Shown here piece after piece: positions 1 through 16,940 of a DNA stretch of 17,325 nucleotides. The DNA lies in contig DBCW01000125.1 of the NCBI GenBank assembly GCA_002293265.1, positions 1,638 to 18,962 on the forward strand, given 5' to 3'. Each line of letters starts with the position of its first letter. Within the stretch, counting starts at the first letter, position 1. Under the pieces are notes generated by a model that ran no database searches, had not been told where the DNA came from, and saw nothing but the letters and a program-made list of their open reading frames with translations. This DNA comes from Eggerthellales bacterium UBA948 (GTDB lineage: Bacteria; Actinomycetota; Coriobacteriia; Coriobacteriales; UBA8131). The position numbers were made by a program, and so were the translations under genes.

Positions 1-915
1 ATGCTTCTTGAGCAAACACAAGGAACCGGCGTCAATGTCTACACCAATGGCGAAATGCTTCCTGCGCATGGTTATCCGGAGTTAAAGAAATACCCACAGT
101 TAAAGGGCAATTTTGGCACAGCATGGCAAAATCAGAAAAAAGAGTTCGACAATATCCCGGCACCGATCCTGTTTACAACAAATTGTTTAATGCCGCCCAA
201 GACGAGTTATGCAGATCGCGTATATACAACATCAGTTGTAGGTTTTCCCGAGATAAAACATATCAACACCAATGCTGATGGCAGCAAAGACTTTAGTGCA
301 ATCATCGAGCAAGCAAAACAACTGGGTGGTTATAGCCAAGATACTCTGATTCCCGGCATCAACGGTGGCGCTTCCGTAATGACAGGATTTGCGCACGGGA
401 CAGTACTTGGTGTGGCTGATACTGTGATTGATGCTGTGAAGTCCGGAGCAATTCGCCAATTCTTCTTAGTTGGTGGATGCGATGGAGCAAAACCGGGGCG
501 CAATTACTTCACAGAGTTTGTTAAGCAGAGTCCATCCGACACCGTGATACTTACATTGGCTTGCGGCAAGTTTCGCTTCAACGACTTAAATATTGGCGAG
601 ATCGGCGGTTTGCCACGCATAATGGACATGGGTCAGTGTAATGATGCTTATTCGGCGATTATGGTTGCCGTTGCTTTAGCAGAAGCTTTCGATTGCGGTG
701 TCAATGATCTACCGCTAACTCTAGTACTTTCATGGTACGAGCAAAAAGCTGTAGCGATCTTACTCACATTACTGTCACTCGGAATACACAACATCTTGCT
801 CGGTCCATCCCTGCCGGCATTTATCTCACCGGCAATTTTAGACTTCCTGGTCAAGAACTTCAGCATTATGCCCATTTCAACGCCGGAAGCAGATTTAGCT
901 AAAATTCTCGGATAG
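1..915 (+). CDS. hcp: Hybrid cluster protein / hydroxylamine reductase, C-terminal part (5' end outside window)
   Basis: Hcp is a cytoplasmic Fe-S protein with a hybrid [4Fe-2S-2O] cluster. It reduces hydroxylamine to ammonia in vitro and NO to N2O in vivo. The visible 304 residues contain the hybrid-cluster ligands in family order: Glu18 (in YTNGEMLP), Cys62 (TTNC), the persulfide-type Cys160 (GGCDGAKPGRNYF), Cys188 (LACGKFRFN), Cys213 (MGQCNDA), and Glu247 with Lys249 (WYEQKA). Full-length Hcp is about 530-550 residues, so roughly the first 240, including the N-terminal Fe-S cysteines, lie upstream of the window. The ATG at base 1 is almost certainly an internal methionine. The gene ends in TAG and is followed by a strong terminator. 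Its position near two nitrite reductases fits protection against NO and hydroxylamine made during nitrite reduction. The family call is secure; which reaction dominates here is inferred. Confidence 0.96.
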   Translation: MLLEQTQGTGVNVYTNGEMLPAHGYPELKKYPQLKGNFGTAWQNQKKEFDNIPAPILFTTNCLMPPKTSYADRVYTTSVVGFPEIKHINTNADGSKDFSAIIEQAKQLGGYSQDTLIPGINGGASVMTGFAHGTVLGVADTVIDAVKSGAIRQFFLVGGCDGAKPGRNYFTEFVKQSPSDTVILTLACGKFRFNDLNIGEIGGLPRIMDMGQCNDAYSAIMVAVALAEAFDCGVNDLPLTLVLSWYEQKAVAILLTLLSLGIHNILLGPSLPAFISPAILDFLVKNFSIMPISTPEADLAKILG

Positions 916-2177: not shown

Positions 2178-3266
2178 CTAATACTTGTTGCGCACAACTT
2201 CAGCTGAGCCTATGAGGTCTCCAACTATGAAATCACTGCCGTCGTCCAGAATCACTTTGCCGAAAAGTTTGCCAAAGACCTGATGTTGATCGCTGATTAT
2301 CAGTCCTACATCGGTTACATCTGCGCGGTCGACAATAGGCTTAAACGATAGATCGAGCCTACCTTCATCATCATAGATATGCCAAGGCTCAAGTAGTTTG
2401 TAACGCTGCTCAAGTCGAGATACTTTCTTTGACAGAACCTCTTCTTCAGGGATATCAAAAACAACACGACCTAATTTGTGGGCAATGCCATCAACAAAGA
2501 CCATGTTTTCGGAGGCTGCAGAAGTATCTCCAAATCCATAACCCAAGTTAAAGCCAAAGCTATGTGTGCCAAAAGTGTTATTGCCCTTGCCGTCTTGCCA
2601 GCCTCCGGCTACTCCCCAAAACCAAGTGTTATCACGCGTCCAAACGCCGCGGCCCCAATCCAGCAGACCAAACGAGTTACTGTTCTCAAATGTATGAGTT
2701 ATTGCGCCTTTATTAAAGCTCCCCTTAGCTCGCATGGCAACTATTTTTTGATTGTAATAAAAAGCTGATGGATCTTCTTTCCAAGGCGTGGCTATGACCA
2801 TGGAGTCACGAGGCTCGTCGCTGAGCACAGCTTCGAACGTCAGAGCCTCATCGCCATCAAAACGTGCAAAACTAGCGGTGAGTTTACGTTTTTTGTCAGC
2901 TACTTCAAAGCAAAGAGACACGCGGGAGTTTTTGAATTCTGAGATGCCGTTTGCTGAACTTTCGGGCATGTGAAAACGACCCATGGGAAACGCAGTTAGC
3001 ACACTGGTCGTTTTATATTTGGCGTGCACGAGATCAACAACAGATGCCGATATCAGCCCCATATACCCCATGTCGGCTATGGTTAGAGCAATGGCATACT
3101 CATCATCATTTACCAAATAATAATCCCACTCTTTGATCCGCCAAGATGGTGCCTTGACTCGCGAGCGCTCATAGGACATGAGCAAACTGGTGGCAAAGCC
3201 AGGATTCAAAAGCCTGCCGGCATCATCGAGGAGCTTGCAAGGTTCAGAAATACGATTCTCATTCAT
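2178..3266 (-). CDS. DUF2804 domain-containing protein
   Basis: A 362-residue protein matching the DUF2804 family (PF10974) along its length. Recognisable blocks are the early segment around SWRIKEWDYYLVND, the central DWGRGVWTRDNTWFWG motif, and the glycine-rich FGFNLGYGFGDTSAASEN stretch followed by FVDGIAHKL. No signal peptide or membrane helix is seen, so it is probably cytoplasmic. The function of the family is unknown to me; its fold has been likened to lipocalin/tocopherol-cyclase-like beta barrels, which suggests lipid or hydrophobic ligands but proves nothing. The start is supported by a GGAGG ribosome site on the minus strand (about 3274-3278), 7 bases before the ATG. It is transcribed away from nrfA copy 1 and has no clear functional link to its neighbours. 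Confidence 0.85.
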   Translation of the reverse strand: MNENRISEPCKLLDDAGRLLNPGFATSLLMSYERSRVKAPSWRIKEWDYYLVNDDEYAIALTIADMGYMGLISASVVDLVHAKYKTTSVLTAFPMGRFHMPESSANGISEFKNSRVSLCFEVADKKRKLTASFARFDGDEALTFEAVLSDEPRDSMVIATPWKEDPSAFYYNQKIVAMRAKGSFNKGAITHTFENSNSFGLLDWGRGVWTRDNTWFWGVAGGWQDGKGNNTFGTHSFGFNLGYGFGDTSAASENMVFVDGIAHKLGRVVFDIPEEEVLSKKVSRLEQRYKLLEPWHIYDDEGRLDLSFKPIVDRADVTDVGLIISDQHQVFGKLFGKVILDDGSDFIVGDLIGSAEVVRNKY

Positions 3267-3626
3267 ATTTGGCCTCCAAGATTAGGGAAGCATCGGTTGG
3301 TGGATTAATGGGCACTTCCTAAGATTATTTATGTGAGAAGTATAGTACGGCGCAAACGTCATAAGCAATCAATGACATCAACTTTATTGCGGTAGTTTTG
3401 ACTTTTTATTTGAACCGTTTTTTACAAAAAGCGAGTCATGCGTAATCTGTTTGGAGTATGATATACCAGCAGAACATAGAGTTGATATTACGATGTCTCA
3501 GACTCGTGATAATGTGGGTGGTTCTAATAAGTACAGATTGTTATATAAAAAGAAGTTGCTTGGGTAAATAGCCGAGACTTCTTTGTGCGTAGAGCACGTG
3601 TGATAACGCTTTTGGAGGGAACGATC
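3267..3626. other. Divergent intergenic region between DUF2804 gene and nrfA copy 1
   Basis: This 360-base AT-rich region carries the control signals for two diverging genes. For the minus-strand gene, TATACT (3344 down to 3339) with a weak TTGCTT 18 bases upstream is a poor promoter candidate. For the plus strand, TTGACT (3398-3403) has no good -10 at 17 bases; TATGAT (3457-3462) and TATATAAA (3542-3549) are possible -10 boxes without convincing -35 partners. The last ~80 bases form the hairpin leader listed separately. No tRNA or small gene is visible. Confidence 0.4.
3549..3597 (+). promoter_or_regulatory. Two adjacent hairpins in the nrfA copy 1 leader
   Basis: Hairpin 1 pairs AAAGAAGT (3549-3556) with ACTTCTTT (3577-3584). 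After a two-base bulge it continues with CTTGG (3559-3563) against CCGAG (3572-3576), one G-T pair, leaving an 8-base loop. A smaller stem, GTGC (3585-3588) with GCAC (3594-3597), follows directly. Both lie just upstream of the GGAGGG ribosome site (3614-3619). They could be an attenuator, an mRNA-stabilising structure or a ligand-binding leader. The pairing is visible; the function is inferred. Confidence 0.45.
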
Positions 3627-5387
3627 ATGTATTGTCCAAATTGTGGATCTAAAAACCCAGACTCGGCAAACTTTTGTCGGAGTTGCGGAACAGCTATGGG
3701 TCAGCCGATAATGACTCAAGGTGTGATACCGCCTGCAAACAACCAGGGCTTTCCTCCCGGTCAATATGCACAAAATCCAAATCAAAACACCGGTGCAAAT
3801 TATCCGCAAGATCCATACCAGCAAAACCCATACCAACAGGATGTATATCGGCAAGACACATATTCACAAGGCGCGACTCCACAAGGCGCGTATCCTCAGG
3901 GCACGACTCCACAAAACGCGCCGACTCAATCCCAAGTCAAGAAACCGGTTCCGGTGCGTATGATAATAATCATCGCAGCAGCAGCTGTGGTGGTTTTAGC
4001 TTTCGTAATATTTATTCTCGTCAGATTTGTTGGTTGTTCCGGATCCGAAGCAGTATATGTGCCTGCTGTCTCGCAAGAGGTTACCGACGCAACGCAGCCA
4101 AACGATCCTCAAGATAGCGAGGCGAGCTCACCGGATTTAGGAACTCCATCAGAGCCAAAAACGCCCACTATAGCCAAGAACGAAAATGGTGTCTGGACTG
4201 CAGATGCTTGGAAAGACATCTATCCTCATCAATATGAGACGTTTAGCGACAATGAACTCAACAGCACGAAAGGAAGCACCGACCCATACTTTGCGTCGCG
4301 TGAGGATATGGTAAAACTTTACCCTCAGATCAAGACTATTTGGAATCCATCTCCGTTTAATACTTATTACAATGAACCTAATGGTCATCCATATGCGCTG
4401 GAAGATGTTAGGGCTACAGGACGTATTTTTGATGCTGCAACACAAACATATAAGCCAACTGCTTTTGCTAATTGTTACACATGCAAGTCTGCTGACTACA
4501 CAGCACTGCTTGCTAAGGATGGCAACGCTGTAGTTAGTATTCCTTTTGGAGATGCAGCGCTTAACAAAAAGATCAATGAGCCAATAAGCTGTTATAACTG
4601 TCACGCAAACAATCTTGAGACCGATGCTACGAGCACCAGCCTTGAGGTAACTCAGCCGTTCTTTACAGCAGGCAAAACAGTAGACATCGCATCGCAAACA
4701 TGCGGACAATGTCATAACGAGTACTACTTCAGTGTTGCCGATAAATCTGTGACTAATCCCTATAGCAGCACCAAAGACATGACTCCTCAAGACATGTATG
4801 AGTACTACAAGACTGCCGGAAAAGACGGCGATAGATTTAACGACTACATAAATCCGTTGACAAAAGTAGGCCAGCTCAAGGCACAACATCCGGAGTTTGA
4901 GTTTGTCTTTGGTGGCAGTGGTTCCTCTATGGCAAAACGTACTAATCCCAATACGGGAGAACTATTTGGTTGCGCAGATTGCCACATGGGCGAGAAGCAA
5001 ATTGCTGATGATGGCATAGAATACACATCTCACCTGCTTATTAGCCCCTTAGACAACCCGGATCTCTTAGAATCAACCTGCGAAATTGCCGGCTGCCACA
5101 CAGACTTACAAGCCCAAGTGGAGGCTTGGCAAAAAGAGTCAGAAGATCGTGTAATGGAAATCGGTAACAAGATAGAAGACCTGACCAAAAAATTAGCCGA
5201 CGCAGTAGCAGCCGATTCACTGGACAGCAAGCAACTTTCAGAGGTGCGAACACTAAACCGCCAAGCTGTTTGGTATTGGGATTTTGTAATGGTAGAAAAT
5301 AGCGAAGGTGCTCACAATCCAACACTTTCAAACGACACGCTTGATCTTGCAGAAGAGGCCGTTGATAAAGCTCTGGGGTATTTCTAG
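3627..5387 (+). CDS. nrfA: Pentaheme ammonia-forming nitrite reductase (NrfA) fused to zinc ribbon, linker and TM anchor; copy 1
   Basis: A 586-residue predicted cytochrome c nitrite reductase (nitrite + 6 e- to ammonium) acting outside the membrane. Domain order: zinc ribbon with Cys3, Cys6, Cys17, Cys20; Tyr/Gln/Pro-rich low-complexity linker, about 25-108; transmembrane helix about 112-135, preceded by Lys/Arg (N-terminus inside); acidic linker; NrfA domain from about 183. Hemes: CYTCK 283-287 (catalytic, lysine-ligated), CYNCH 322, CGQCH 359, CADCH 449 and an unusual CX4CH (CEIAGCH) 485-491. The active-site Arg262, Tyr366 and His421 are present, as are the calcium ligands Glu365, Lys418 and Gln420. 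The start is ATG 3627, 7 bases after GGAGGG; an upstream in-frame start has no ribosome site and would push the zinc ribbon inward. About 80-85% identical by eye to copy 2 over the catalytic domain, with a two-residue indel. No NrfH partner is adjacent. The enzyme call is strong; the role of the N-terminal module is unknown. Confidence 0.93.
   Translation: MYCPNCGSKNPDSANFCRSCGTAMGQPIMTQGVIPPANNQGFPPGQYAQNPNQNTGANYPQDPYQQNPYQQDVYRQDTYSQGATPQGAYPQGTTPQNAPTQSQVKKPVPVRMIIIIAAAAVVVLAFVIFILVRFVGCSGSEAVYVPAVSQEVTDATQPNDPQDSEASSPDLGTPSEPKTPTIAKNENGVWTADAWKDIYPHQYETFSDNELNSTKGSTDPYFASREDMVKLYPQIKTIWNPSPFNTYYNEPNGHPYALEDVRATGRIFDAATQTYKPTAFANCYTCKSADYTALLAKDGNAVVSIPFGDAALNKKINEPISCYNCHANNLETDATSTSLEVTQPFFTAGKTVDIASQTCGQCHNEYYFSVADKSVTNPYSSTKDMTPQDMYEYYKTAGKDGDRFNDYINPLTKVGQLKAQHPEFEFVFGGSGSSMAKRTNPNTGELFGCADCHMGEKQIADDGIEYTSHLLISPLDNPDLLESTCEIAGCHTDLQAQVEAWQKESEDRVMEIGNKIEDLTKKLADAVAADSLDSKQLSEVRTLNRQAVWYWDFVMVENSEGAHNPTLSNDTLDLAEEAVDKALGYF
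3800..3934 (+). repeat. Degenerate short repeats encoding the YxQ/PQG linker of nrfA copy 1
   Basis: In-frame low-complexity tract encoding repeated DPYQQ, NPYQQ, DVYRQ, DTYSQ units and then GATPQ, GAYPQ, GTTPQ units, giving a period of about five codons. At the DNA level CGACTCCACAA occurs twice, 30 bases apart (3874-3884 and 3904-3914). Such tracts expand and contract by slippage and typically encode flexible cytoplasmic or wall-spanning spacers; here it lies between a zinc ribbon and a membrane helix. Confidence 0.7.
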
Positions 5388-5419
5388 ACTTTTTTGCATA
5401 AAAACGCATAGTATCGGAC

Positions 5420-5448
5420 TTGACCAAGTTGTAGTTTTGCATTAAGAT
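5420..5448 (+). promoter_or_regulatory. Candidate promoter for metNIQ
   Basis: TTGACC (5420-5425) and TAAGAT (5443-5448) are separated by exactly 17 bases, a plausible sigma-70/SigA-type promoter. It would give a leader of roughly 140 bases before metN. A short palindrome CATAC-TG-GTATG (5474-5485) downstream could be an operator or chance. Confidence 0.45.
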
Positions 5449-5496
5449 ACCGCGCATGTCTTTTCGCTTTTCACATACTGGTATGATGATGCATGA

Positions 5497-5555
5497 GCCT
5501 GAGTTTAGGGGTCGCTCCTAAAGCTCGGGCGTTAAACTATGCCGTAATTTACGGC
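5497..5555 (+). promoter_or_regulatory. Structured leader of metN (two hairpins)
   Basis: Stem 1 pairs GCCTGAG-TTTAGG (5497-5509) with CCTAAA-G-CTCGGGC (5517-5530): 13 pairs with one bulged G, one G-T pair and a 7-base loop. Stem 2 pairs GCCGT (5541-5545) with ACGGC (5551-5555). No U-tract follows either stem, so neither is an ordinary terminator. Position and length would suit a riboswitch or protein-binding leader for methionine uptake, but I cannot match it to any SAM riboswitch class or to a T-box. Confidence 0.45.
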
Positions 5556-5595
5556 GCAATAGCTGCTCAGTAACTATCAGTAGGAAGGCTTCCCC

Positions 5596-6348
5596 TTGAT
5601 TGAATTTCGCAACTTGAGCAAAACCTTTGAAAGCAAAGAGGGTACTCATAAAGCGCTTCATGACATAAATCTAACAATCGCAAATGGCGACATTTTTGGC
5701 ATTATCGGTTCGTCCGGTGCCGGAAAGTCTACGCTTGTGCGCTGCATTAACCTGTTAGAGCGACCTACATCAGGTGCGGTGCTCATTGATGAGATAGATG
5801 TTACAAATTACAAGGGTCGCCAACTGCTTGATTTACGAGCACGTATCGGCATGATATTTCAAGATTTTAATCTCTTTTCACAACGCACTGTGTTGCAAAA
5901 CGTAACATTTCCCTTAGAGATCCGCCACGACAAGCATGAGCATGCCGTGCAAAGAGCACGTGAGCTACTGGATCTGGTAGGGCTTACAAACATGGAGAAG
6001 CGCTATCCGGCTCAATTGTCCGGCGGTCAACAGCAACGTGTATCGATCGCACGTGCACTTGCCAACCATCCTGATTACCTACTTTGCGATGAGGCGACAA
6101 GCGCGCTGGACACACTAACAACGGATTCGATTTTAGAACTCATAAAACAGATCAATCGCGATCTTGGAGTAACTGTAGTGATCATTACCCATGCCATGTC
6201 GGTTGTGGAGGCGGCTTGCAACAACGTAGCCGTTATCAACGACTCATGCATCGTGGAGCAAGGTAGCGTTAATGATGTGTTTAGCTCACCAAAAGCAGAT
6301 ATTACTCGCCGCTTGCTAAGACTGGAGGTAGGTGAAGCAAATGCCTGA
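5596..6348 (+). CDS. metN: Methionine ABC transporter ATP-binding protein MetN, short form
   Basis: A 250-residue ABC ATPase that would power methionine uptake with MetI and MetQ at the inner face of the membrane. Walker A GSSGAGKST begins at residue 38, the Q-loop region reads FQDFNLF, the signature is LSGGQQQRV, and Walker B LLCDEATSALD is followed by the His-switch ITHAM. Typical MetN is about 340 residues with a C-terminal NIL regulatory domain that binds methionine and inhibits transport. This protein stops after the ATPase core and lacks that domain. The start codon is TTG, supported by AGGAAGG (5582-5588) 7 bases upstream. It overlaps metI by 8 bases, so the two are translationally coupled. 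The assignment as methionine rather than another NlpA-type substrate rests on the family resemblance of all three subunits. Confidence 0.9.
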   Translation: MIEFRNLSKTFESKEGTHKALHDINLTIANGDIFGIIGSSGAGKSTLVRCINLLERPTSGAVLIDEIDVTNYKGRQLLDLRARIGMIFQDFNLFSQRTVLQNVTFPLEIRHDKHEHAVQRARELLDLVGLTNMEKRYPAQLSGGQQQRVSIARALANHPDYLLCDEATSALDTLTTDSILELIKQINRDLGVTVVIITHAMSVVEAACNNVAVINDSCIVEQGSVNDVFSSPKADITRRLLRLEVGEANA

Positions 6349-8074: not shown

Positions 8075-9571
8075 CTACCCAAACCAAGCTTTCGCCAATC
8101 TGGCAATTCCTGAATCGATCATGCTTTCAGGAATTGCCGAAAAGCCGATAAGCACATAATTGTTCATTTGATGATGGGTGCCCATCCAGTAGCGATTGGT
8201 CTCGTATACTCTAACACCTGCCTTTGATGCAAGTTGTATCAGCTCACTTTGATGACGCCCATCAAGAACTCCCACTAATATATGATGCCCACAGTTGCCA
8301 TCCATGATGTCAACAAGTCCACCCATGTATTTGCTAAACGCACTTAACAAAGCGGCGTGTTTGCGTTTGTTTACTGATTGGGATTTGCGCAGGTGCTTGT
8401 TTAAGTGCCCCTTTTCGATATACCTTGTTAATACAGCCTGAGATAACCAAGGAACTTCTGAATGATAATTGGCGTATAGTTTATGCCATTCAAACAATAG
8501 ATCCGGCGGAAGCACTAAATAACTCAGACACATTGCCGGCGAGAGCGATTTGGAAAAGGTGCCCATGTAAACAACGCGGTTGTGTTTATCGATAGACTGT
8601 AAAGAGGGTAGAGGGCGAGTGGTATACCTAAACTCTCGGCAATAATCGTCTTCTAATATATATGCATTTTCTGTAGTTGCCCATTTTAATAGCCGCTGCC
8701 TTATTGGCAGTTGTAAAACTTCTCCGGTGGGGAACTGACCGGATGGTGTGACATATGCAAGTTTTGCATGTGAGTTATAAAGAGCATCAATAAAAGCATC
8801 ATTACTTTGCCCTATCGTAATCGGAAAGACCCTGAATCTTGCATTCTCAAAAACCGAGCGTGCTCCATCATAACCCGGCTCCTCCATGGCAATCACATCG
8901 CGAAGAGGATCAAAAAGAGTTAAAAGGTTGCTCAGACCAAACTGAGTACCGGCTTGCAAAACTATTTGCGAAGGATGGCAATTTACGCCGCTTTTTATGC
9001 GAACCATTTGCGCAATTTGCTCTCGCAAGGCTTTTTCCCCGAGATTATTGGTATATGTGCTTGCTCCCACAATGTTGGAATCACCCAGAACTTCATTGGT
9101 AAGCCTGCGCCAAAGTTGTGCAGGAAAACTCGTTTGCATCATGTTTTCATGAGTAAAGTCAAATTCAATTTGTGATGATAATGGCGCACGTATGCCTTCG
9201 ATAGATATGTTTTCTTTAATGCGAAATTCTTCTCTCGAGTTTTTTAGACTTTCCCAGATATTTGTCTGATCCAGACGCTTAAAAAATGGATCTGCATTTG
9301 GCGAATAACTCAAGGTCACCTTGTCGTTTATGTTTCTGGGATCTTCGACCAAAAAGCCGCTACCGGTTCTGCTGGTCACGTATCCCTCTTGACTTAGTCG
9401 CATGTATGCAGATTCGACAGTGTTGCGGGAGACTCCAAGCTCATCTGCCAGCGTGCGAATAGGCGGTAGTTTTGTTCCTCTTTGATAGGTTCCGTCTTTG
9501 ATTTGACTTTGAAATTGTTCATAGATCTGTTGGTATTTTGGAATCTTGCTGTTCAGGTCAATTGTAATCAT
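8075..9571 (-). CDS. MocR-family transcriptional regulator (GntR wHTH fused to class I aminotransferase-like domain)
   Basis: A 498-residue regulator. Residues 1 to about 75 form a GntR winged helix-turn-helix (YQQIYEQFQSQI, LPPIRTLADELGVSRNTV, GYVTSRTGSGFLV). The remainder is a fold-type I aminotransferase domain that binds PLP, with QAGTQFGLSNLL, the EEPGYDG block, the LEDDYCREFR block, and a candidate Schiff-base lysine, Lys341, in GTFSKSLSP. Known MocR members (GabR, PdxR, TauR-like) act as PLP/amino-compound-responsive activators or repressors, often of a divergent gene. Here the divergent neighbour is nrfA copy 2 and the convergent one is metQ, so the target cannot be named. I chose ATG 9571 because the conserved start MITIDLNSKIPKYQQ fits the family; a TTG at 9604 in the same frame is the alternative. 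A perfect inverted repeat lies inside the 3' coding end. Confidence 0.9.
   Translation of the reverse strand: MITIDLNSKIPKYQQIYEQFQSQIKDGTYQRGTKLPPIRTLADELGVSRNTVESAYMRLSQEGYVTSRTGSGFLVEDPRNINDKVTLSYSPNADPFFKRLDQTNIWESLKNSREEFRIKENISIEGIRAPLSSQIEFDFTHENMMQTSFPAQLWRRLTNEVLGDSNIVGASTYTNNLGEKALREQIAQMVRIKSGVNCHPSQIVLQAGTQFGLSNLLTLFDPLRDVIAMEEPGYDGARSVFENARFRVFPITIGQSNDAFIDALYNSHAKLAYVTPSGQFPTGEVLQLPIRQRLLKWATTENAYILEDDYCREFRYTTRPLPSLQSIDKHNRVVYMGTFSKSLSPAMCLSYLVLPPDLLFEWHKLYANYHSEVPWLSQAVLTRYIEKGHLNKHLRKSQSVNKRKHAALLSAFSKYMGGLVDIMDGNCGHHILVGVLDGRHQSELIQLASKAGVRVYETNRYWMGTHHQMNNYVLIGFSAIPESMIDSGIARLAKAWFG
8102..8138. repeat. Perfect 13-bp inverted repeat at the 3' end of the MocR gene
   Basis: GGCAATTCCTGAA (8102-8114) and TTCAGGAATTGCC (8126-8138) are exact reverse complements around an 11-base spacer. 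The element lies about 60 bases beyond the metQ stop and inside the last ~21 codons of the convergent MocR gene, where it encodes part of FSAIPESMIDSGIARLA. No T-run follows on either strand. It may define the 3' end of the metQ mRNA by RNA folding. Confidence 0.7.
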
Positions 9572-9866
9572 AAGAAAATATCCCAATCCCCATTTGCTTG
9601 ACAACTCTAACGCTATCTATTGCGTAAGAATCTACCAAAACTTCCTTGATTGTCCGTATCTCAATGCTTTGATAATAAACTAAAATTGACCCCATCGAAA
9701 GCCCAAATTTCAATTAAATTTAGCTTAAATGCCTATACTTTATCTTGATATGAGGTATATGTTCTTAAAGTGTACCCAAGAAAATGATGAAGAAGCATCC
9801 CTGTTTGAATTGTGACTACATAGCTAAACTGATTAACAACGTTAACCAGGAAGGAGGATATGCTTA
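9572..9866. promoter_or_regulatory. Shared control region between the MocR gene and nrfA copy 2
   Basis: A 295-base AT-rich region between divergent genes. Candidate plus-strand -10 TATACT (9734-9739) lacks a good -35 at 17 bases. TTGACC (9686-9691) with TTCAAT (9709-9714) at 17-base spacing is an alternative. TTGAT occurs three times (9646-9650, 9669-9673, 9745-9749) and could be direct-repeat operator half-sites or FNR-like half-sites, but no proper inverted pair was found. A strong GGAGG (9853-9857) serves nrfA copy 2. No small gene is seen. Confidence 0.4.
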
Positions 9867-11273
9867 ATGGAAAGGAAGGAAATGACTACTAAAAGTGAAA
9901 TGCATAAAAAGTTCCTTGTAGTAGCAGCAGTTTTTGTTATGGTAATCGCTTTGGTTTCACTGGTTGCATGTCAGCAACCTGCACCGTCTACCCCCAGCGC
10001 ACCAGCTGAGGATACGACACCTGCAGGAAAAGACTCAGAGCCGGCAACACCAACGATGGCCAAGAACGCTAACGGCGTTTGGACGGCAGAAGCTTGGAAA
10101 GACATCTACCCAAACCAGTATCAAACATGGAAGGATAATGAGGCCAACAGTACAGAGGGCAGCACCGATCCTTACTTCGCAGCTCGCGAGGATATGGTAG
10201 AGCTTTATCCCCAGATCAAAACGATCTGGAACCCATCTCCGTTCAACACTTACTACAATGAGCCTAATGGACATCCCTATTCACTAGAAGATGTTCGTGC
10301 AACACAACGTATCTTTGATGCAGCAACACAGGCTTACAAGCCAACGGCATTTGCAAATTGCTACACTTGCAAATCTGCTGACTACACCGCACTTTTGATC
10401 AAAGACGGTAATGCAACTGAGAATATCCCATTTGGCGATATTAAGGACAAAATCAACGAGGCCATCAGCTGCTACAACTGTCACTCTAATAATCTTGAGA
10501 CTGATGCTACAAGCGATAGCCTTCAAGTAACCTCACCGTTCTTTACGGCCGGTTCATTTGCTGATGTTGGATCACAGACCTGCGGTCAGTGCCATAATGA
10601 GTACTACTTCAGACCAGCTGACAGATCAGTTCAAAACCCCTACACCAACCAAGCTGACATGACCCCTGAGGCCATGTATGAGTTCTACAAGACTGCCGGT
10701 GCAGAGGGTAAGCCATTTAATGACTACTCCAACCCACTAACAGGCGTTGGTCAGCTCAAGACCCAACATCCTGAGTTCGAGTTCGTATTTGGCGGAAGTA
10801 AATCTTCAATGGCAAAGCGCACTAACCCGAACACTGGCGAGACCTTTGGTTGTGCTGATTGCCATATGGGCGAAACACAAGTTTCCGCTGATGGCGTAAA
10901 CTACACATCACATCTACTCATCAGCCCGCTGGATAATCCGGCGCTGCTTGAGTCAACATGTGAGATCGCCGGTTGCCATACAGACCTTGCTGCTCAGGTA
11001 GAGGCTTGGCAGAAAGAGTCTGAGGATCGCGTACATGCTATCGGCGACAAGATCGAGGATCTGACAAAGAAACTCGCTGACGCTGTTGCCGCTAACAGCC
11101 TTGATGAGACCAAACTCGCCGAGGTTCGCGAACTTAATCGTCAGGCCGTATGGTATTGGGACTTCGTAATGGTGGAGAACAGCGAAGGCTCCCACAACCC
11201 TGATCTATCCAATGACACTCTTGATCTCAGCGAAGATGCTGTAGACAAGGCATTGGCATATTTCGTGGGATAA
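9867..11273 (+). CDS. nrfA: Pentaheme ammonia-forming nitrite reductase (NrfA), lipoprotein form; copy 2
   Basis: A 468-residue predicted cytochrome c nitrite reductase. The N-terminus is a lipoprotein signal: basic start, hydrophobic helix and lipobox LVAC with Cys35, so it should be tethered to the outer face of the membrane. Hemes: CYTCK 165-169 (catalytic, lysine ligand), CYNCH 202-206, CGQCH 239-243, CADCH 329-333 and CX4CH (CEIAGCH) 365-371. The active site retains Arg144, Tyr246 and His301; Glu245, Lys298 and Gln300 match the calcium site. The late NSEGSHNP His is the likely distal ligand of one bis-His heme. ATG 9867 is preferred (GGAGG nine bases upstream); ATG 9882 is possible. Codons look more C-ending than in copy 1, and the strong ribosome site plus two downstream terminators suggest high expression as a single gene. 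It lacks the zinc ribbon and linker of copy 1. No NrfH is encoded nearby, so its electron donor is unknown. Confidence 0.95.
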   Translation: MERKEMTTKSEMHKKFLVVAAVFVMVIALVSLVACQQPAPSTPSAPAEDTTPAGKDSEPATPTMAKNANGVWTAEAWKDIYPNQYQTWKDNEANSTEGSTDPYFAAREDMVELYPQIKTIWNPSPFNTYYNEPNGHPYSLEDVRATQRIFDAATQAYKPTAFANCYTCKSADYTALLIKDGNATENIPFGDIKDKINEAISCYNCHSNNLETDATSDSLQVTSPFFTAGSFADVGSQTCGQCHNEYYFRPADRSVQNPYTNQADMTPEAMYEFYKTAGAEGKPFNDYSNPLTGVGQLKTQHPEFEFVFGGSKSSMAKRTNPNTGETFGCADCHMGETQVSADGVNYTSHLLISPLDNPALLESTCEIAGCHTDLAAQVEAWQKESEDRVHAIGDKIEDLTKKLADAVAANSLDETKLAEVRELNRQAVWYWDFVMVENSEGSHNPDLSNDTLDLSEDAVDKALAYFVG

Positions 11274-11454: not shown

Positions 11455-11518
11455 TAGTAGGTAGAAAGGCATGATGGGGAAGCGAGTGGAACTCGCAAAT
11501 ATTCACAGGAGGATTACC

Positions 11519-12184
11519 TTGAATACAAAAATGAAGCGCCGACTTACCGCAGTGACCGGTGCCATAGTGATTGTTGTAGCAGTTGTTCTTGCAATTGTTG
11601 CCGGTACAACCAGTGCAAAGACTGTGACGGTTGCGGAAGCAGCGGAAGGTGCCTACAAGGGCTCAAAGATCGAAGTTACCGGTAAGGTTGTAGATAATTC
11701 TTTCACTTACTCCAGCAGCTCACTGGCGTTTTCTATTTATGACGAAGCCGGAGATGTGGCAAAAACCCTCAAGGTCATCTACGATAAAGGCGTTCAGTCT
11801 TCTTTTGGAAATCAGATCACAGCTACTTGTACGGGCGTAATAGATGAGCAAGGTACACTGCGCTGCAGCGAGCTTGTAACACAATGCCCATCTAAATATG
11901 AGGGCGCAACAGATGCGCTTACAGTGACACAGATGTCAAACTACGGAGCTGAAATAATCGGCAAACCGGTCAAGGTTACAGGCACGATCAAGGCCGGCAC
12001 GATGAAAGCAGCCGGACAAGGTGACCGTTTTGTGATTACTGATGAAAGTGGCGAAAACGAATTTTCGGTAGTATATGAGGGGGCTTTGTCAGATGAAGTC
12101 AAAGACGGCGCTGCGGTTGTATTGTCCGGAGCACTTTCTGACCCTGATAGTTTCATTGCTACTGACGTAGCCTTAAAAGGCTAA
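11519..12184 (+). CDS. ccmE: CcmE-type heme chaperone, CXXXY class, with a second OB-fold domain
   Basis: A 221-residue membrane-anchored protein: basic start, one hydrophobic helix (about residues 10-30), then extracytoplasmic beta-rich domains. Domain 1 (about 35-130) ends in CPSKYEG, with Cys123 and Tyr127. This is the CXXXY form of the CcmE heme-attachment motif known from archaea, Desulfovibrio and some Gram-positives, replacing HxxxY. Domain 2 (about 135-221) again looks CcmE/OB-like (IIGKPVKVTGTIKAG, RFVITDESGE, FSVVYEGALSDEVKDGAAVV) but ends before any His/Cys-xxx-Tyr motif. Normal CcmE is about 130-160 residues with one OB fold. It would accept heme from CcmABCD and pass it to CcmF. 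The start is TTG 11519 because AGGAGG (11507-11512) sits six bases upstream; an earlier in-frame ATG at 11471 would place charged residues in front of the anchor and lacks this site. Confidence 0.85.
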   Translation: MNTKMKRRLTAVTGAIVIVVAVVLAIVAGTTSAKTVTVAEAAEGAYKGSKIEVTGKVVDNSFTYSSSSLAFSIYDEAGDVAKTLKVIYDKGVQSSFGNQITATCTGVIDEQGTLRCSELVTQCPSKYEGATDALTVTQMSNYGAEIIGKPVKVTGTIKAGTMKAAGQGDRFVITDESGENEFSVVYEGALSDEVKDGAAVVLSGALSDPDSFIATDVALKG

Positions 12185-12231
12185 TCAGCTTGACGCACGC
12201 AGTTTAAGGTTGATTAAAGCCTATAGCGATA

Positions 12232-12265
12232 AACTGGCTGCCTGATAAGGATAGGGCGGCCAGTT
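12232..12265 (+). terminator. Hairpin between ccmE and ccmF
   Basis: AACTGGCTGCC (12232-12242) pairs over 11 positions (one G-T) with GGCGGCCAGTT (12255-12265) around a 12-base loop, followed by GTAGTTTTAG. The U-tract is broken, so it may be a partial terminator or processing site tuning ccmE against the downstream genes rather than a full stop. Confidence 0.5.
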
Positions 12266-12317
12266 GTAGTTTTAGTGGATTGTGACATTTGGTCGTATAA
12301 GAGGATAAGGAAAATAC

Positions 12318-14648
12318 ATGCACATATTGGGTGTAGCCTCATTGGGCTTGGCGTTTTTTGCTGTTTTAGTTTCGGTTGTGGCTTTCATTGTCAATCGTGT
12401 AATGGAAGGCTCAATTAGATCAGCCGATAAGAAGTCCAAAGAATCATTAATTAAAACAAGCCAAACTGTTAGCCTCATAGGTTATATTGGTGTTTTCACA
12501 GCAGCTTTTGCTTTGCTTTTTGCATGCGCGCTTATTCTCTATAGCTTTATTGCCGGTGACTACTCACTTGAATATGTGGTGAAATATCACACTGATACAA
12601 CCAGCGAGTTGGCTTTGTTGTATAAGATATCCGGTCTTTGGGGCGGGCGCGAAGGATCGCTTTTATTCTGGGCATGTCTCATTGCTATTTTTAACGCCGT
12701 TGTTGCTGTTCGCACAATAAAGAAGCGCGAGAGCCTGGACAACATGGCATTATTTGTGGCTCAGCTGGTCTTACTTGCTTTCGTTGCTGTATTGCTGTTC
12801 TCAGATTCAAACATGCCTTTTGTGCCGCTGGATGCTCGCTACTTTGATGCTGACGGAAGCCTAAAGACCTATACGGCTTTGATGCTGGAATCTAGTGCCG
12901 GTGCTGTGGGTATATCCCCGGGCATAGTTGCCGGCATGAATCCATTGCTTGAGCATTGGGCGATGGCAATTCATCCACCTACACTGTTTATCGGTTATGC
13001 CGGACTTACAATTCCGTTCGCGTATGCGATCGCTGCGCTCATTGTTAATGATCCTTCAAAGAAATGGGTGGAGCGCGCACAGCGTTACACCATGTTTTCT
13101 TGGGTATTCCTAGGAATCGGCATTGGGCTTGGAGCCGTATGGGCATATGTGGTCTTAGGATGGGGCGGATACTGGGGCTGGGATCCTGTAGAGAACGCCA
13201 GTTTGCTTTCATGGATTGTTGCCGTTGCTATGGTGCATAGCTTTACCGTATATCGTCAACGTGGTGCATTTAAAGCCTGGGCAATATTTTGCGCCTGCCT
13301 AACATTCTCTTTTGTTATCTTGGGCACCTTTATTACCAGGTCGGGCGTAATACAAAACTCGGTGCACGCCTTTGATGGTGACACAGTTTCTATGTGGTTA
13401 TTCCTGGGACTAATAGTATTCTCACTGCTTGCAGGTATTGTCGGTCTGATAATTCGATGGAAGAGGTTTAAGGCAGATAACGACGACACCTTAGGCGATT
13501 CGATGATGACAAAAGGAGTCATGTACTTCTTTAACAATGTGATCTTAGTCATCAGTGCGGTGGTGATTGCATATCTCACTCTGGCAACTGCCTTGCCAAG
13601 TTGGCTGCCTTTTGGAGGCTATTCATTCTCAGCACAAACATATAATGCCATTGCCAGGCCTCTAACAATTATCTACGCCACTATTATGGCAATAGGCCCT
13701 CTGCTTTCGTGGATCAAGACCGATTGGACCAGCTTTAGGAAGAAAGCACTTGTACCGGGCATTTTGGCTTTAGCGACTTTTGGTGTTCTCTTATTCAGCT
13801 TCTTTACTTACCTCGTGCCCAGCTACAATGCAAGTATTGCTGCAGGCGGTTCACATGCTGAGGAAATGTTGGCATTTGGGTCACCCATATATTATTTTGG
13901 TCTAACCATTTTAGGCATGTTGGTTGCATCGATCCTGTTCTTCAACTCGCTGTTCTTGATAGGCAGAACCATATCAGCTCAGGCTAAGGCAAAAAACCTC
14001 AACCCATTTGCAGCGTGTTTTTCCGCCATGCGAAACAGAGCTTCGGCGTTTGGAGGGTTTTTAGCGCACCTTTCAATTGCCGTCATACTTATAGGCCTTA
14101 TCGGATCTTCGATGTACGTAACCCATAAGACCAGCTACATTCCATTTGATCCGGAAACCGGTAAAGTTACTGAAGCCTTTGTGATCAACGATTATCGCAT
14201 GGAATTTGTTTCCAGTAATGTGGAGGTACTTAGCGCCGACGACCGAGTTTACAGCGTTACCTTTAATGCGTACAAAGGCGATCAATATATCGGTCAAGTG
14301 ACGCCGGGAATGCACTCTACGCAGTCAACTCAGCAACGAATTGCCAGAGCCTCAGTCATTACCGGACCGGTAGAGGATTTGTTTGTTGTCTTTAACGGAA
14401 TCACCGAAGATAACTCGATGTCTATGGCCGGTTATGTGAATCCGTTTGTTATCTACGTTTGGATCGGCTTTGGCATCTTGGTGCTTGGCACGACTATCGC
14501 AACAGTTGGTAGGCGAACTTCAAGGGCTTCGGCTAATGGAGACGTGGTTGCGGTTGAGACCTTGAGCAGTGAACCTGCACCGGCCGATGAAGAAGCAGCA
14601 GGCGTTGCAGAAGACGCAGACAAAAGCGAAGTCGATGAAAAAAAATAA
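12318..14648 (+). CDS. ccmF: CcmF/NrfE-type cytochrome c heme lyase
   Basis: A 776-residue polytopic membrane protein that transfers heme from CcmE to the CXXCH cysteines of apocytochromes on the outer face. The WWD heme-binding domain is clear: WGGYWGWDPVENASLLSW begins at residue 282. HWAMAIHPPTLFIGYAG lies before it and VHSFTVYRQRGAFKAW after it; both carry the conserved His region that flanks the WWD domain. There are many hydrophobic helices, a large external domain before the last helix (near the ICVWIGFG-like segment VIYVWIGFGILV), and an acidic Glu/Ala/Asp-rich cytoplasmic tail of about 45 residues. CcmF is usually about 630-680 residues, so this is long. ATG 12318 follows an AGGATAAGGA purine stretch. 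Its last codons overlap the ccmA start. It is the only heme lyase in view and must handle, or be helped with, the CXXCK and CX4CH motifs of NrfA. Confidence 0.95.
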   Translation: MHILGVASLGLAFFAVLVSVVAFIVNRVMEGSIRSADKKSKESLIKTSQTVSLIGYIGVFTAAFALLFACALILYSFIAGDYSLEYVVKYHTDTTSELALLYKISGLWGGREGSLLFWACLIAIFNAVVAVRTIKKRESLDNMALFVAQLVLLAFVAVLLFSDSNMPFVPLDARYFDADGSLKTYTALMLESSAGAVGISPGIVAGMNPLLEHWAMAIHPPTLFIGYAGLTIPFAYAIAALIVNDPSKKWVERAQRYTMFSWVFLGIGIGLGAVWAYVVLGWGGYWGWDPVENASLLSWIVAVAMVHSFTVYRQRGAFKAWAIFCACLTFSFVILGTFITRSGVIQNSVHAFDGDTVSMWLFLGLIVFSLLAGIVGLIIRWKRFKADNDDTLGDSMMTKGVMYFFNNVILVISAVVIAYLTLATALPSWLPFGGYSFSAQTYNAIARPLTIIYATIMAIGPLLSWIKTDWTSFRKKALVPGILALATFGVLLFSFFTYLVPSYNASIAAGGSHAEEMLAFGSPIYYFGLTILGMLVASILFFNSLFLIGRTISAQAKAKNLNPFAACFSAMRNRASAFGGFLAHLSIAVILIGLIGSSMYVTHKTSYIPFDPETGKVTEAFVINDYRMEFVSSNVEVLSADDRVYSVTFNAYKGDQYIGQVTPGMHSTQSTQQRIARASVITGPVEDLFVVFNGITEDNSMSMAGYVNPFVIYVWIGFGILVLGTTIATVGRRTSRASANGDVVAVETLSSEPAPADEEAAGVAEDADKSEVDEKK

Positions 14649-15381
14649 TCAAAACACGATCAAGACGGACACCTTAGCCATTGAGGCTAAGGGTCTGTCT
14701 AAGCTATTTGGCGTGCGCAGAGCACTTGACGGCTTGGATCTAAAGCTGCCCCAAGGAGCGTTTTTGTCTATATTTGGACCAAACGGTGCCGGTAAGACCA
14801 CCTTGCTTTCTATTCTGTCTACACTTGCACGTCCAACCAAAGGCAAGGCAAAGGTGCTCGGCTTTGATCTGAATGAGAACTCCGATGACATTCGCGGACA
14901 AATAGGGCTGATATCACATCGCTCTATGCTTTACCCAGATTTGACAGCTGAAGAAAACTTGCTCTTTATTGCACGCCTGTATGGGCTAAAAGATCCCAAA
15001 GGTCGTGTAGATGAGCTGCTAGATGCTGTTGAGCTTACTTTGCGTAGACACGACACAGTACGCACTTTTTCGCGTGGCATGACTCAGCGTTTGTCTATTG
15101 CGCGGTCACTTATCTGCGATCCAAAGTTGATATTTTTGGATGAGCCATACTCCGGTCTTGACCCACACGCGGTTGATATTTTAGACGGATTGATTGCACA
15201 GATACGTGATGGACGCAGTTTTGTGATGGTCAGCCACGATCTGCAAAAAGGTTTTGACCTTAGTACGCATGTGTTGATGCTGGCTAAAGGCAAAGAAGTA
15301 TTATTTTCCGAGAAAGAAAACCTGGATTTTGAGGCATTTGCCCAGCAATATCGCGCTACTGTTGGTATGGGGGTGGTGTAG
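14635..15381 (+). CDS. ccmA: Heme exporter ABC ATP-binding protein CcmA
   Basis: A 248-residue ABC ATPase. Walker A GPNGAGKTT starts at residue 48, the signature reads FSRGMTQRLSIARSL, and Walker B LIFLDEPYSGLD is followed by the His-switch VMVSHD. CcmA works with CcmB to release holo-CcmE from CcmC/D by ATP hydrolysis. ATG 14635 overlaps the ccmF end by 14 bases, indicating translational coupling. An ORF open from 14569 would overlap far more and lacks sequence resemblance before this point. The gene stops immediately before the ccmB GTG. The CcmA name rests on the operon context as much as on sequence, since isolated ABC ATPases of this type look alike. Confidence 0.9.
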   Translation: MKKNNQNTIKTDTLAIEAKGLSKLFGVRRALDGLDLKLPQGAFLSIFGPNGAGKTTLLSILSTLARPTKGKAKVLGFDLNENSDDIRGQIGLISHRSMLYPDLTAEENLLFIARLYGLKDPKGRVDELLDAVELTLRRHDTVRTFSRGMTQRLSIARSLICDPKLIFLDEPYSGLDPHAVDILDGLIAQIRDGRSFVMVSHDLQKGFDLSTHVLMLAKGKEVLFSEKENLDFEAFAQQYRATVGMGVV

Positions 15382-16149
15382 GTGGAGAGTAAAAGTGGTG
15401 CAAATGAACAAGTTGTCGAACAGGCCAATATAGCTCACTCTATACTAAAGACTCCATCAACATTTTCTCAATACAAGGCGCTGTTGGCCAAAGATATCAG
15501 GCAAGAATTTCGTACTCGTGAGATGCTGACGTCTATGGGTATTTACGCTTTGCTGGTGCTGATCATCTTTGGTGTAGCGTTTTCGCAGATGCCCAGCAGT
15601 TATGAGATTATGCCTATAAGTGGCGGACTCATTTGGGCGCTGATAGTTTTTACCTCGTTGCTAGGCTTAAACCGCTCTTTCTCGCATGAAAAAGAAGAGG
15701 GGAGTTTGCAAGGGATATTGCTTGTGCCTTTGGACAGGGCGGTGATATTTCTCTCCAAGGCCACTTCTAATCTATTGTTTTTGGCAATTGTCGAACTTAT
15801 CACCATTCCTTTGTTTTACTTCTTTTTTCTCTCATCTGAGATAGTGGCTGACACTTTATGGTTGGCTGTTATACCTATTATTGTTGGTACTGTTGGGATC
15901 GCCGGCATAGGTACACTACTGGCAACGATAACAATGAGTACGCGAGGTAAAGATGTCTTGCTGGCAGTTTTGTTTATCCCGCTTTCATATCCGCTGCTTT
16001 TTGCATGCGTATCGGCTACCTCAGCTGCAATTGTTGGCGATAGTATGATGATGAGTAATTACATTTCCTCTGTAGCATTGGCTGCAGGTTATGATGTGGT
16101 GATGATACTGGTCTCGTGGCTGCTTTACGACTATGTTGTGAGCGCCTGA
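15382..16149 (+). CDS. ccmB: Heme exporter membrane protein CcmB
   Basis: A 255-residue membrane protein with about six hydrophobic segments, partner of CcmA in the CcmAB complex. The family pattern is visible from LLAKDIRQEFRTREMLTSMG through the loop SFSHEKEEGSLQGILLVPLDR, which is typical of CcmB. Family members are about 220 residues; this one has an extra hydrophilic N-terminus of about 35 residues. The start is GTG, directly abutting the ccmA TAG with no gap, and the purine-rich GGGGGTGG end of ccmA can serve as ribosome site. No better in-frame start is visible. It acts in the cytoplasmic membrane. Confidence 0.92.
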   Translation: MESKSGANEQVVEQANIAHSILKTPSTFSQYKALLAKDIRQEFRTREMLTSMGIYALLVLIIFGVAFSQMPSSYEIMPISGGLIWALIVFTSLLGLNRSFSHEKEEGSLQGILLVPLDRAVIFLSKATSNLLFLAIVELITIPLFYFFFLSSEIVADTLWLAVIPIIVGTVGIAGIGTLLATITMSTRGKDVLLAVLFIPLSYPLLFACVSATSAAIVGDSMMMSNYISSVALAAGYDVVMILVSWLLYDYVVSA

Positions 16150-16175
16150 TAATACAAGGGAAGGTAGGACGATGA

Positions 16176-16940
16176 ATGAATGAGAATGTAAAAGTAGGTG
16201 GAATTCTCGATCAGTTGGCGAATGTCGCTTTGGTGCTTGGTCTGTTACTGACAACCGCATCATTCATATTGACGTTTACCATTGTTCCGGTTCCACAATC
16301 CAATCTCAACGTGGTGCCGGCTGATCAGCCGCCGGCAGAGATCGGCGGTCTATACGTGACCAATGCGCTGATGTTTTCACAAAAGATCTTTTATTTTCAT
16401 ATGCCTGTAGCGGTAATAAGCTTAGGCATCCTGTTTTTTACGGCTTTGTTTGGCATCATGTTTTTGATCAAGCGCGACCATCGCTGGGATCTTAACGCCA
16501 AAGTAGCCACCGAAGTATCACTGGTGTTCATTTTAATGACCATGGCAACCGGTGAGTTTTGGACAGCTTACGAATGGAACGCCTGGTGGGTCTGGGAACC
16601 AAGACTTACAACATATCTAATACTTACACTACTGGTGATAGGTTACTTCATTTTACGCAATGCGGTTGATGACCCTGAGCGCCGAGCAGTATTTGCCTCA
16701 GTCTTTGGCATACTAGCCTTCATAGACGCAGTAGTAAGCCTGCTAATAACCCGCATAATCCCCTCAAGCAGACACCCGGTAATTACCAGAGAAGGTGGTC
16801 TGGAGCCCCTAATGGTAATGGCACTAGTAGTCTGCATATTTGGCATGATTTTCCTAGCATACGGAATCTACCGCACCAGAATTAGAGAACAAAGGCTACG
16901 CATTCGCCTTGACACCATCAAAGAGAGGTTGGAGGACTAA
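16176..16940 (+). CDS. ccmC: Heme handling protein CcmC
   Basis: A 254-residue membrane protein of the heme-handling (WWD) family that loads heme onto CcmE. Six hydrophobic segments are visible. The WWD motif reads WNAWWVWEPRLTT (Trp134 to about 146), where Glu141 and Pro142 stand in the positions usually given as WDxR. The two conserved external histidines are present: His75 in FHMPVAV and His200 in SRHPVI. Two overlapping ATG codons precede the start in other frames and close at once; ATG 16176 is the only one that opens the frame, with GGGAAGGTAGG just upstream. A 26-base gap separates it from ccmB. It would work with CcmD to form the holo-CcmE complex. Confidence 0.94.
   Translation: MNENVKVGGILDQLANVALVLGLLLTTASFILTFTIVPVPQSNLNVVPADQPPAEIGGLYVTNALMFSQKIFYFHMPVAVISLGILFFTALFGIMFLIKRDHRWDLNAKVATEVSLVFILMTMATGEFWTAYEWNAWWVWEPRLTTYLILTLLVIGYFILRNAVDDPERRAVFASVFGILAFIDAVVSLLITRIIPSSRHPVITREGGLEPLMVMALVVCIFGMIFLAYGIYRTRIREQRLRIRLDTIKERLED

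Follow-up and report, generated by a model that had tools for sequence, protein, structure and literature searches.

The window, by which we mean the whole stretch of 17,325 nucleotides that was analysed, contains two copies of the gene for the nitrite reductase NrfA (Table 1). One copy (P0001) is joined in frame to an N-terminal zinc ribbon, a low-complexity linker and a predicted transmembrane helix, and has DUF2804, zinc peptidase and metNIQ genes as neighbours. The other copy, here called the sister, has a lipoprotein signal and is followed by the System I genes for cytochrome c maturation; in this cluster, ccmA (Pfam ABC_tran) and ccmC (Pfam Cytochrom_C_asm) were assigned by position. The gene for the hybrid cluster protein (hcp, PF03063) at the left edge of the window is split over different frames (window 1-915 and L218:904-1722), with an N-terminal part that matches positions 1-217 of the profile and a C-terminal part that matches positions 221-512; the split is either a frameshift or a sequence error. 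A promoter and terminator scan of window positions 3200-5700 remained at chance level. The fusion is known from a single contig of one draft genome, which consists of 180 contigs and is 83% complete.

Table 1 Positions of the fused nrfA gene, its parts, the sister gene and the genes next to the sister
Feature	Position	Strand	Basis
Shine-Dalgarno-like GGAGGG, seven bases ahead of the ATG at 3627	3614..3619	+	sequence
Fused gene P0001, 586 aa	3627..5387	+	single open frame
Zinc ribbon CPNC-X10-CRSC, residues 2-23	3630..3695	+	PF13240
Low-complexity P/Q/G/Y linker, residues 24-104 (about 80)	3696..3938	+	sequence; pLDDT <50
Predicted transmembrane helix, residues 110-135, KK ahead	3954..4031	+	AlphaFold helix; hydropathy
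Cys137 just beyond the helix, in a context (FVGC-SGS) that fails the lipobox pattern	4035..4037	+	
Predicted extracytoplasmic linker, scant likeness to sister gene	4038..4148	+	7-12/30 nt identical in windows starting at or before 4119
NrfA catalytic part, residues 175-586, homologous to sister copy	4149..5384	+	homology start; PF02335; fold
Heme-5 attachment motif CEIAGCH (CX4CH)	5079..5099	+	
MocR/PdxR-type regulator, divergent from sister nrfA	8075..9604	-	NF052282, 421 bits, cut-off 320
Sister NrfA, 468 aa, lipoprotein signal ending LVAC-QQP	9867..11273	+	lipobox pattern
ccmE, ccmF, ccmA, ccmB, ccmC (System I cytochrome c maturation)	11471..16940	+	Pfam

Domain layout of the fused protein

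A sequence-only reading of this DNA had proposed that a single frame encodes a zinc ribbon, a low-complexity linker, a transmembrane helix with a basic flank and NrfA, and the open reading frame, Pfam, hydropathy and the AlphaFold model all bear this out. The frame is uninterrupted from the ATG at 3627 to the TAG that ends at 5387. Pfam detects Zn_Ribbon_1 (PF13240) at residues 2-23 (34 bits, cut-off 25) and Cytochrom_C552 (PF02335) at residues 193-582 (214 bits, cut-off 24.1); two narrower NCBIfam models stay below their cut-offs (NF008339: 179.5 of 595, TIGR03152: 135.6 of 692.5), as they do with the sister. Hydrophobicity peaks at residues 113-131 (mean Kyte-Doolittle 3.47), preceded by KK and R. 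The AlphaFold model, built on a 51-row alignment (mean pLDDT 77, pTM 0.71), has a pLDDT below 50 at residues 25-105, followed by a helix at residues 110-135 and then by the NrfA fold. The best solved matches of the model found by Foldseek are the NrfA of D. desulfuricans (E 6.4e-19) and then that of D. vulgaris; the TM-score with E. coli NrfA (2rdz) is 0.73 by target length. Judged by sequence and model, P0001 is a protein with an N-terminal C4 ribbon, a flexible linker, one transmembrane helix and an outer domain, and the four cysteines of the ribbon probably bind zinc.

The same reading had considered a stop or frameshift between the helix and the NrfA domain, and a translation start that lies only after the helix. 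No stop or frameshift is present between these two parts on this contig, and in no forward frame is there another strong hydrophobic stretch between helix and NrfA (best 13-residue means 0.68, 1.39 and 0.76), which leaves the NrfA part without any other visible export signal. The only full-length match of P0001 in its own genome is P0001 itself.

The enzyme half and its origin from the sister gene

Residues R266, Y366, H421, E365, K418 and Q420 of P0001 are invariant in the 51-row alignment and presumably correspond to the active-site Arg, Tyr and His and the calcium-site Glu, Lys and Gln of the solved NrfA structures. The hemes are represented by five motifs: the first is of the CXXCK type (CYTCK 283), the second to fourth are regular (CYNCH 322, CGQCH 359, CADCH 449) and the fifth is CX4CH (CEIAGCH 485), whose Cys and His are in the aligned position. 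The claim of an intact NrfA with its active-site residues stands for these residues and for the number of heme sites; what it had overlooked is the fifth motif, which is not CXXCH. Compared with the solved NrfA proteins (E. coli 1gu6/2rdz, D. desulfuricans 1oah and D. vulgaris NrfHA 2j7a), the fold, the CXXCK of heme 1, the residues of the active site and calcium site and the five heme sites are alike, whereas the N-terminal zinc ribbon, the linker, the transmembrane helix and the CX4CH of heme 5 are particular to the fusion, and no NrfH was found in its genome.

Several tests point to constraint on the enzyme half. Among 90 columns that are at least 90% conserved in the 49 other rows of the alignment, P0001 deviates at four: two gap columns and V548, which it has in common with the sister, and Gly136, which falls into the region of helix and lipobox. 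Over 400 aligned codons, fusion and sister have identities of 0.855, 0.893 and 0.425 at codon positions 1, 2 and 3, with a dN of 0.135 and a saturated dS; this codon-position pattern, as read from the two sequences, means strong purifying selection on NrfA coding. As identity is 43% at third positions and 89% at second positions, the enzyme half of the fusion looks functional and would be expected to convert nitrite to ammonium.

The unusual heme-5 motif is not restricted to the fusion. CEIAGCH is present in both NrfA copies of the window, and 119 proteins of the best 120 of 874 database matches could be classed into 86 with CX2CH, 15 with CX4CH and 18 with CX5CH, so the longer spacings are found in 33 of 119 (P0001-P0029, P0041, P0050, P0074 and P0102). 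On a 45-row tree that was built with the motif columns kept, the fewest changes needed are three between CX2 and longer spacings and ten among the three states. In open-licence literature, no papers were found on CX4CH together with NrfA or on CX5CH together with heme; PMC5566968, in its available passages, merely counts CX3CH and CX4CH motifs. The heme-5 spacing of this clade may be a more general surprise than the fusion and bears on the question of how much variation in motif spacing System I maturation tolerates in a respiratory enzyme.

The sister NrfA is 82% identical to the fusion (400 codons), and in the 45-row maximum-likelihood tree the two pair together with 99/98 support. Next outward are P0004 (84/34, weak) and then P0003, which is 91% identical to the NrfA of G017, the only genome of the same genus that was searched; the G017 copy itself is not part of the tree. 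As fusion and sister pair in the tree, the duplication happened within the source lineage, and the fusion is, by its sequence, a copy of this genome's lipoprotein NrfA that is specific to the lineage. That the two end branches are nearly equal (0.15 and 0.13) is a sign that purifying selection acts on both copies.

The homology between the two copies ends sharply at 4149. In a gapless DNA alignment, windows that start at 4149-4209 have 22-27 of 30 nucleotides identical and windows further downstream have 18-25; identity falls to 17 of 30 at window 4134 and to 7-12 of 30 before. With a break at this position, the duplicate took the catalytic part from just past the signal and spacer of the sister. 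The DNA also speaks to the suspicion that the fusion is an assembly artefact, or two genes joined by a sequencing error, which the draft state of the genome (180 contigs), the hcp frameshift on the same contig and the failure to find a second genome with the fusion could nourish. We hold this to be extremely improbable: the longest exact run common to both copies (17 nucleotides) is at 4206, away from the junction, which makes a repeat-driven misassembly at the junction unlikely; a strong hydrophobic stretch between helix and NrfA is missing from every forward frame; the GC content of the segments is 0.41-0.52 with no abrupt change; and the protein database lists P0001 on two contigs, which are perhaps not independent.

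An inheritance of the transmembrane helix from the lipoprotein signal of the sister was considered and is unsupported, because upstream of about 4134 the two DNAs match no better than by chance: a local score of 16 between the upstream sequences (shuffled mean 10.8, maximum 18, n=300) comes from the junction stretch itself. Against this rejection, the linker behind the helix, compared at the protein level with the N-terminal part of the sister, beats all 500 shuffles (z 4.3); we put this likeness down to some mix of low complexity and the SEP-TPT-AK end that lies at the junction.

The surroundings of the sister are only partly conserved. A mocR gene is found at most 1500 nucleotides upstream of nrfA in 15 of 74 relatives' loci with enough flank, and ccmE/F at most 2500 nucleotides downstream in 27 of 72 relatives' loci. 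The MocR/PdxR-type regulator at 8075-9604 is a candidate regulator of nrfA.

Membrane attachment of NrfA in the clade and rarity of the fusion

The sequence-only reading had taken an NrfA with only a plain signal peptide as the standard; this is not the norm of the clade, in which NrfA is typically a predicted lipoprotein. The lipobox pattern used, which we take to be that of PROSITE PS51257, fits 109 of the 117 proteins with enough N-terminus among the best 120 of 874 matches, including the sister and excluding the fusion. The 109 fitting proteins have G, A, S, T, V or M at position -4, mostly Leu (93) or Phe (nine) at -3, and Ala (106) or Gly (three) at -1. The eight misfits are the fusion, two incomplete entries, four FMN_bind fusions and P0035, which has Pro at -3. 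Going by the pattern, lipid anchoring is the predicted rule in the clade, the FMN_bind fusion is one exception and the zinc-ribbon/transmembrane fusion is another, seen once.

Cys137 of the fusion requires a closer look, as it sits in a lipobox-like context (FVGC-SGS), in a column that is Cys in 51 of 51 rows of alignment A1, and the sister is a lipoprotein by pattern. Signal peptidase II might cut before Cys137, followed by lipidation, and the product would be an ordinary lipoprotein with ribbon and helix as an oddly long signal peptide. We regard this as improbable: Arg at -4 breaks the lipobox pattern, more than 100 residues lie ahead of the helix, and the DNA homology to the sister starts only 38 residues later, so that Cys137 need not have come from the sister.

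According to the relevant passages of PMC3475470, known NrfA proteins are soluble and the NrfA of B. azotoformans is predicted to be a lipoprotein, which might also hold for two other Firmicutes; the nrfAH genes of B. azotoformans are linked to ccm genes. The fusion resembles such lipoprotein NrfA of Firmicutes and Coriobacteriia (B. azotoformans BAZO_03255, as treated in those passages, and the sister in the window) in its predicted membrane attachment and in the link to System I ccm genes; it differs by a transmembrane helix in place of the lipid and by the additional zinc ribbon, and B. azotoformans, again by the same passages, has NrfH. The four FMN_bind-NrfA proteins (PF04205 plus PF02335: P0037, P0095, P0109 and P0113) also have an extra N-terminal domain and no lipobox match, with a flavin-binding family where the fusion has the zinc ribbon. 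The fusion would represent another route of NrfA membrane attachment beside lipid anchors and FMN_bind fusions, and the swap is caught next to the unswapped sister gene.

Some NrfA proteins, the four just named among them and by record title from Oscillospiraceae and other Clostridia, have an N-terminal transmembrane helix together with FMN_bind; by eye, this is also seen in L045, L056, L064, L065 and others. It is possible that this arrangement provides a built-in flavin electron route.

A search for further proteins that combine ribbon, transmembrane helix and Cytochrom_C552, as the sequence-only reading had suggested, returned no second fusion from 80 loci, 33 genomes of the family and 396 genomes of the class. 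In the 80 related NrfA loci from named genomes, the upstream frame was read and contained no zinc ribbon; two of these loci reach contig ends, with the own signal of L003 still visible and L005 uninformative. PF02335 is present in 18 of the 33 family genomes with 27 matches, and among the 25 that were read (the partial L152 and L161 were left out, and L154 is without its N-terminus) the fusion alone has a ribbon. Of the 396 class genomes, 97 have an NrfA match (with at most three candidates scored per genome) and none of the listed matches except the fusion starts before residue 110. As a ribbon with a different linker might escape alignment, the upstream frames of the 12 other class-genome matches with open frames of at least 507 aa were read as well, with no ribbon upstream in frame in any of them. 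In a search of 5.8 billion proteins (7997 candidates scored), PF13240 is found only on P0001 among the best 120 of 874 matches, and a fusion in a distant NrfA could lie beyond this range. Protein searches with residues 1-190 or 1-45 of the fusion returned only P0001, the 1-45 search with this single candidate.

In open-licence literature, no papers were found on NrfA with a zinc ribbon, on zinc ribbons and Coriobacteriia, or on the combination of zinc ribbon, transmembrane helix, extracellular domain and Firmicutes. The words 'fused' and 'fusion' are absent from the main text of PMC10716430, and heme-5 spacing goes unmentioned in its available passages. The fusion is a real new combination of known parts and a singleton.

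The zinc-ribbon module and its likely role

The N-terminal half of the fusion belongs to a layout that is common in the family. Zinc ribbons of the PF13240 type are over cut-off in all 33 family genomes. A survey of 55 zinc-ribbon ORFs in sampled loci, which cover part of the matches (30 of 58 in the own genome), identified 19, the fusion among them, with an N-terminal ribbon, one transmembrane helix and an outer part of at least 60 residues; of the rest, 20 lack a transmembrane helix and 16 have several. The linker consists to at least half of P, Q, G, Y, A or S in 16 of the 19. Two of the 18 others are from the genome of the window: L083 and L091, the latter again in L085. The N-terminal half of the fusion beats 500 shuffles against both (z 10.5 with L091 and z 8.8 with L083), as would be expected from the common ribbon, composition and helix.

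With BLASTP at E 0.001, the outer parts of the 19 module proteins form 12 groups, of which one is the fusion's NrfA and 11 are others. Among the 18 others, the only Pfam-named outer domains over cut-off are MORN (L130) and YARHG (L206), and none is an enzyme; NrfA is the only recognisable enzyme on the module among the 19, and the fusion is the one ORF with at least two CXXCH motifs among 60 zinc-ribbon ORFs of the sampled loci. In short, the other zinc-ribbon/linker/helix proteins of the family (L083, L091, L130 with MORN repeats, L206 with YARHG) are like the fusion in their N-terminal half, from the four-Cys ribbon and the usually P/Q/G/Y/A/S-rich linker to the basic residues and the single helix, and unlike it in their outer parts, which are other than cytochromes. 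Staphylococcal TcaA is presumably a similar protein of zinc ribbon, linker, single transmembrane helix and outer domain. A module that is found on many different outer domains is not nitrite-specific, and the ribbon that accompanies them most plausibly belongs to a general anchor.

The module occupies the place of the lipid-anchor signal of the sister. We consider it probable, with clear room for doubt, that a generic zinc-ribbon/transmembrane module replaced the lipid anchor and produced an NrfA tethered by a helix, with the ribbon mainly as a folded cytoplasmic element. The catalytic part of the sister (from residue 175) would have been joined in frame behind this module, which comprises a cytoplasmic N-terminal zinc ribbon, a flexible P/Q/G/Y linker, basic residues and one transmembrane helix of N-in orientation. 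The module would export the NrfA part and keep it tethered by the helix to the outside of the cell membrane. Hemes would be attached outside by the System I machinery whose genes lie next to the sister, and the fused enzyme would reduce nitrite to ammonium like the sister, at the membrane surface. As in the other module proteins, the ribbon would chiefly be a folded element on the cytoplasmic side that serves as a stop or for insertion or clustering. A helix could be of use over a lipid by placement near a membrane electron donor, by resistance to shedding or by clustering with module proteins.

Several points speak against replacement of the lipid anchor by a generic module. The fusion is a singleton, with no second fusion sequence to show selection on the N-terminal module; the assembly is 83% complete and has the hcp frameshift at the left edge of the window; Cys137 sits where a lipobox Cys would; and with no Pfam-named enzyme on the 18 other module proteins, a role as an enzyme anchor is without precedent in that set. 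The electron donor also counts here: NrfH (PF03264) has no match at E 0.001 in the source assembly, with a control search that found the E. coli protein, and no FMN_bind protein was found in the same assembly, even though two NrfA copies are kept.

The lack of a detected NrfH is, at the same time, in favour of the most serious functional rival, an active scaffold. The ribbon could recruit a partner, for instance an electron donor, a maturation factor or other module proteins, into a complex that does not include the lipoprotein copy. Consistent with this, many proteins of the family share the layout and the fused enzyme has been kept beside its lipid-anchored sister until third positions were saturated. 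We nevertheless judge scaffolding to be rather unlikely, because none of the neighbours of the fusion is a recognised partner gene, and a search of the 80 relatives' loci for proteins with at least 40% identity to hcp, peptidase, DUF2804, metN, metI, metQ or ribbon returned one MetN at 40%, with many flanks being short; no conserved neighbourhood of the fusion was seen across these loci.

Sensing is a further option. Four-cysteine zinc sites can react with NO or oxidants, and hcp, an NO-related gene, is present in the same window; the cytoplasmic ribbon might read NO or redox state, or turnover of the enzyme outside might be signalled across the helix, and the protein would be sensor and enzyme of nitrite respiration in one. 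This is very doubtful: the same layout carries different outer domains, the linker is predicted to be disordered, no coupling is evident across a single helix, and Pfam detects no output domain in P0001. Of the three roles that the sequence-only reading had left side by side (sensing, scaffold or anchoring), anchoring is favoured by a layout that recurs on many outer domains and is placed here at the position of the sister's lipid signal, and nothing specific was found for redox or NO sensing.

The zinc-ribbon/transmembrane module is common but little understood. With the fusion and its sister, nature provides a matched pair in which the effect of the module on its cargo, in this case an easily assayed enzyme, can be studied. 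The own genome also has at least six short proteins that start with MCFRP (L092, L094, L096, L099, L108 and L110) and carry one or two zinc ribbons, and most of them end in a tail in which P, G, A and K abound.
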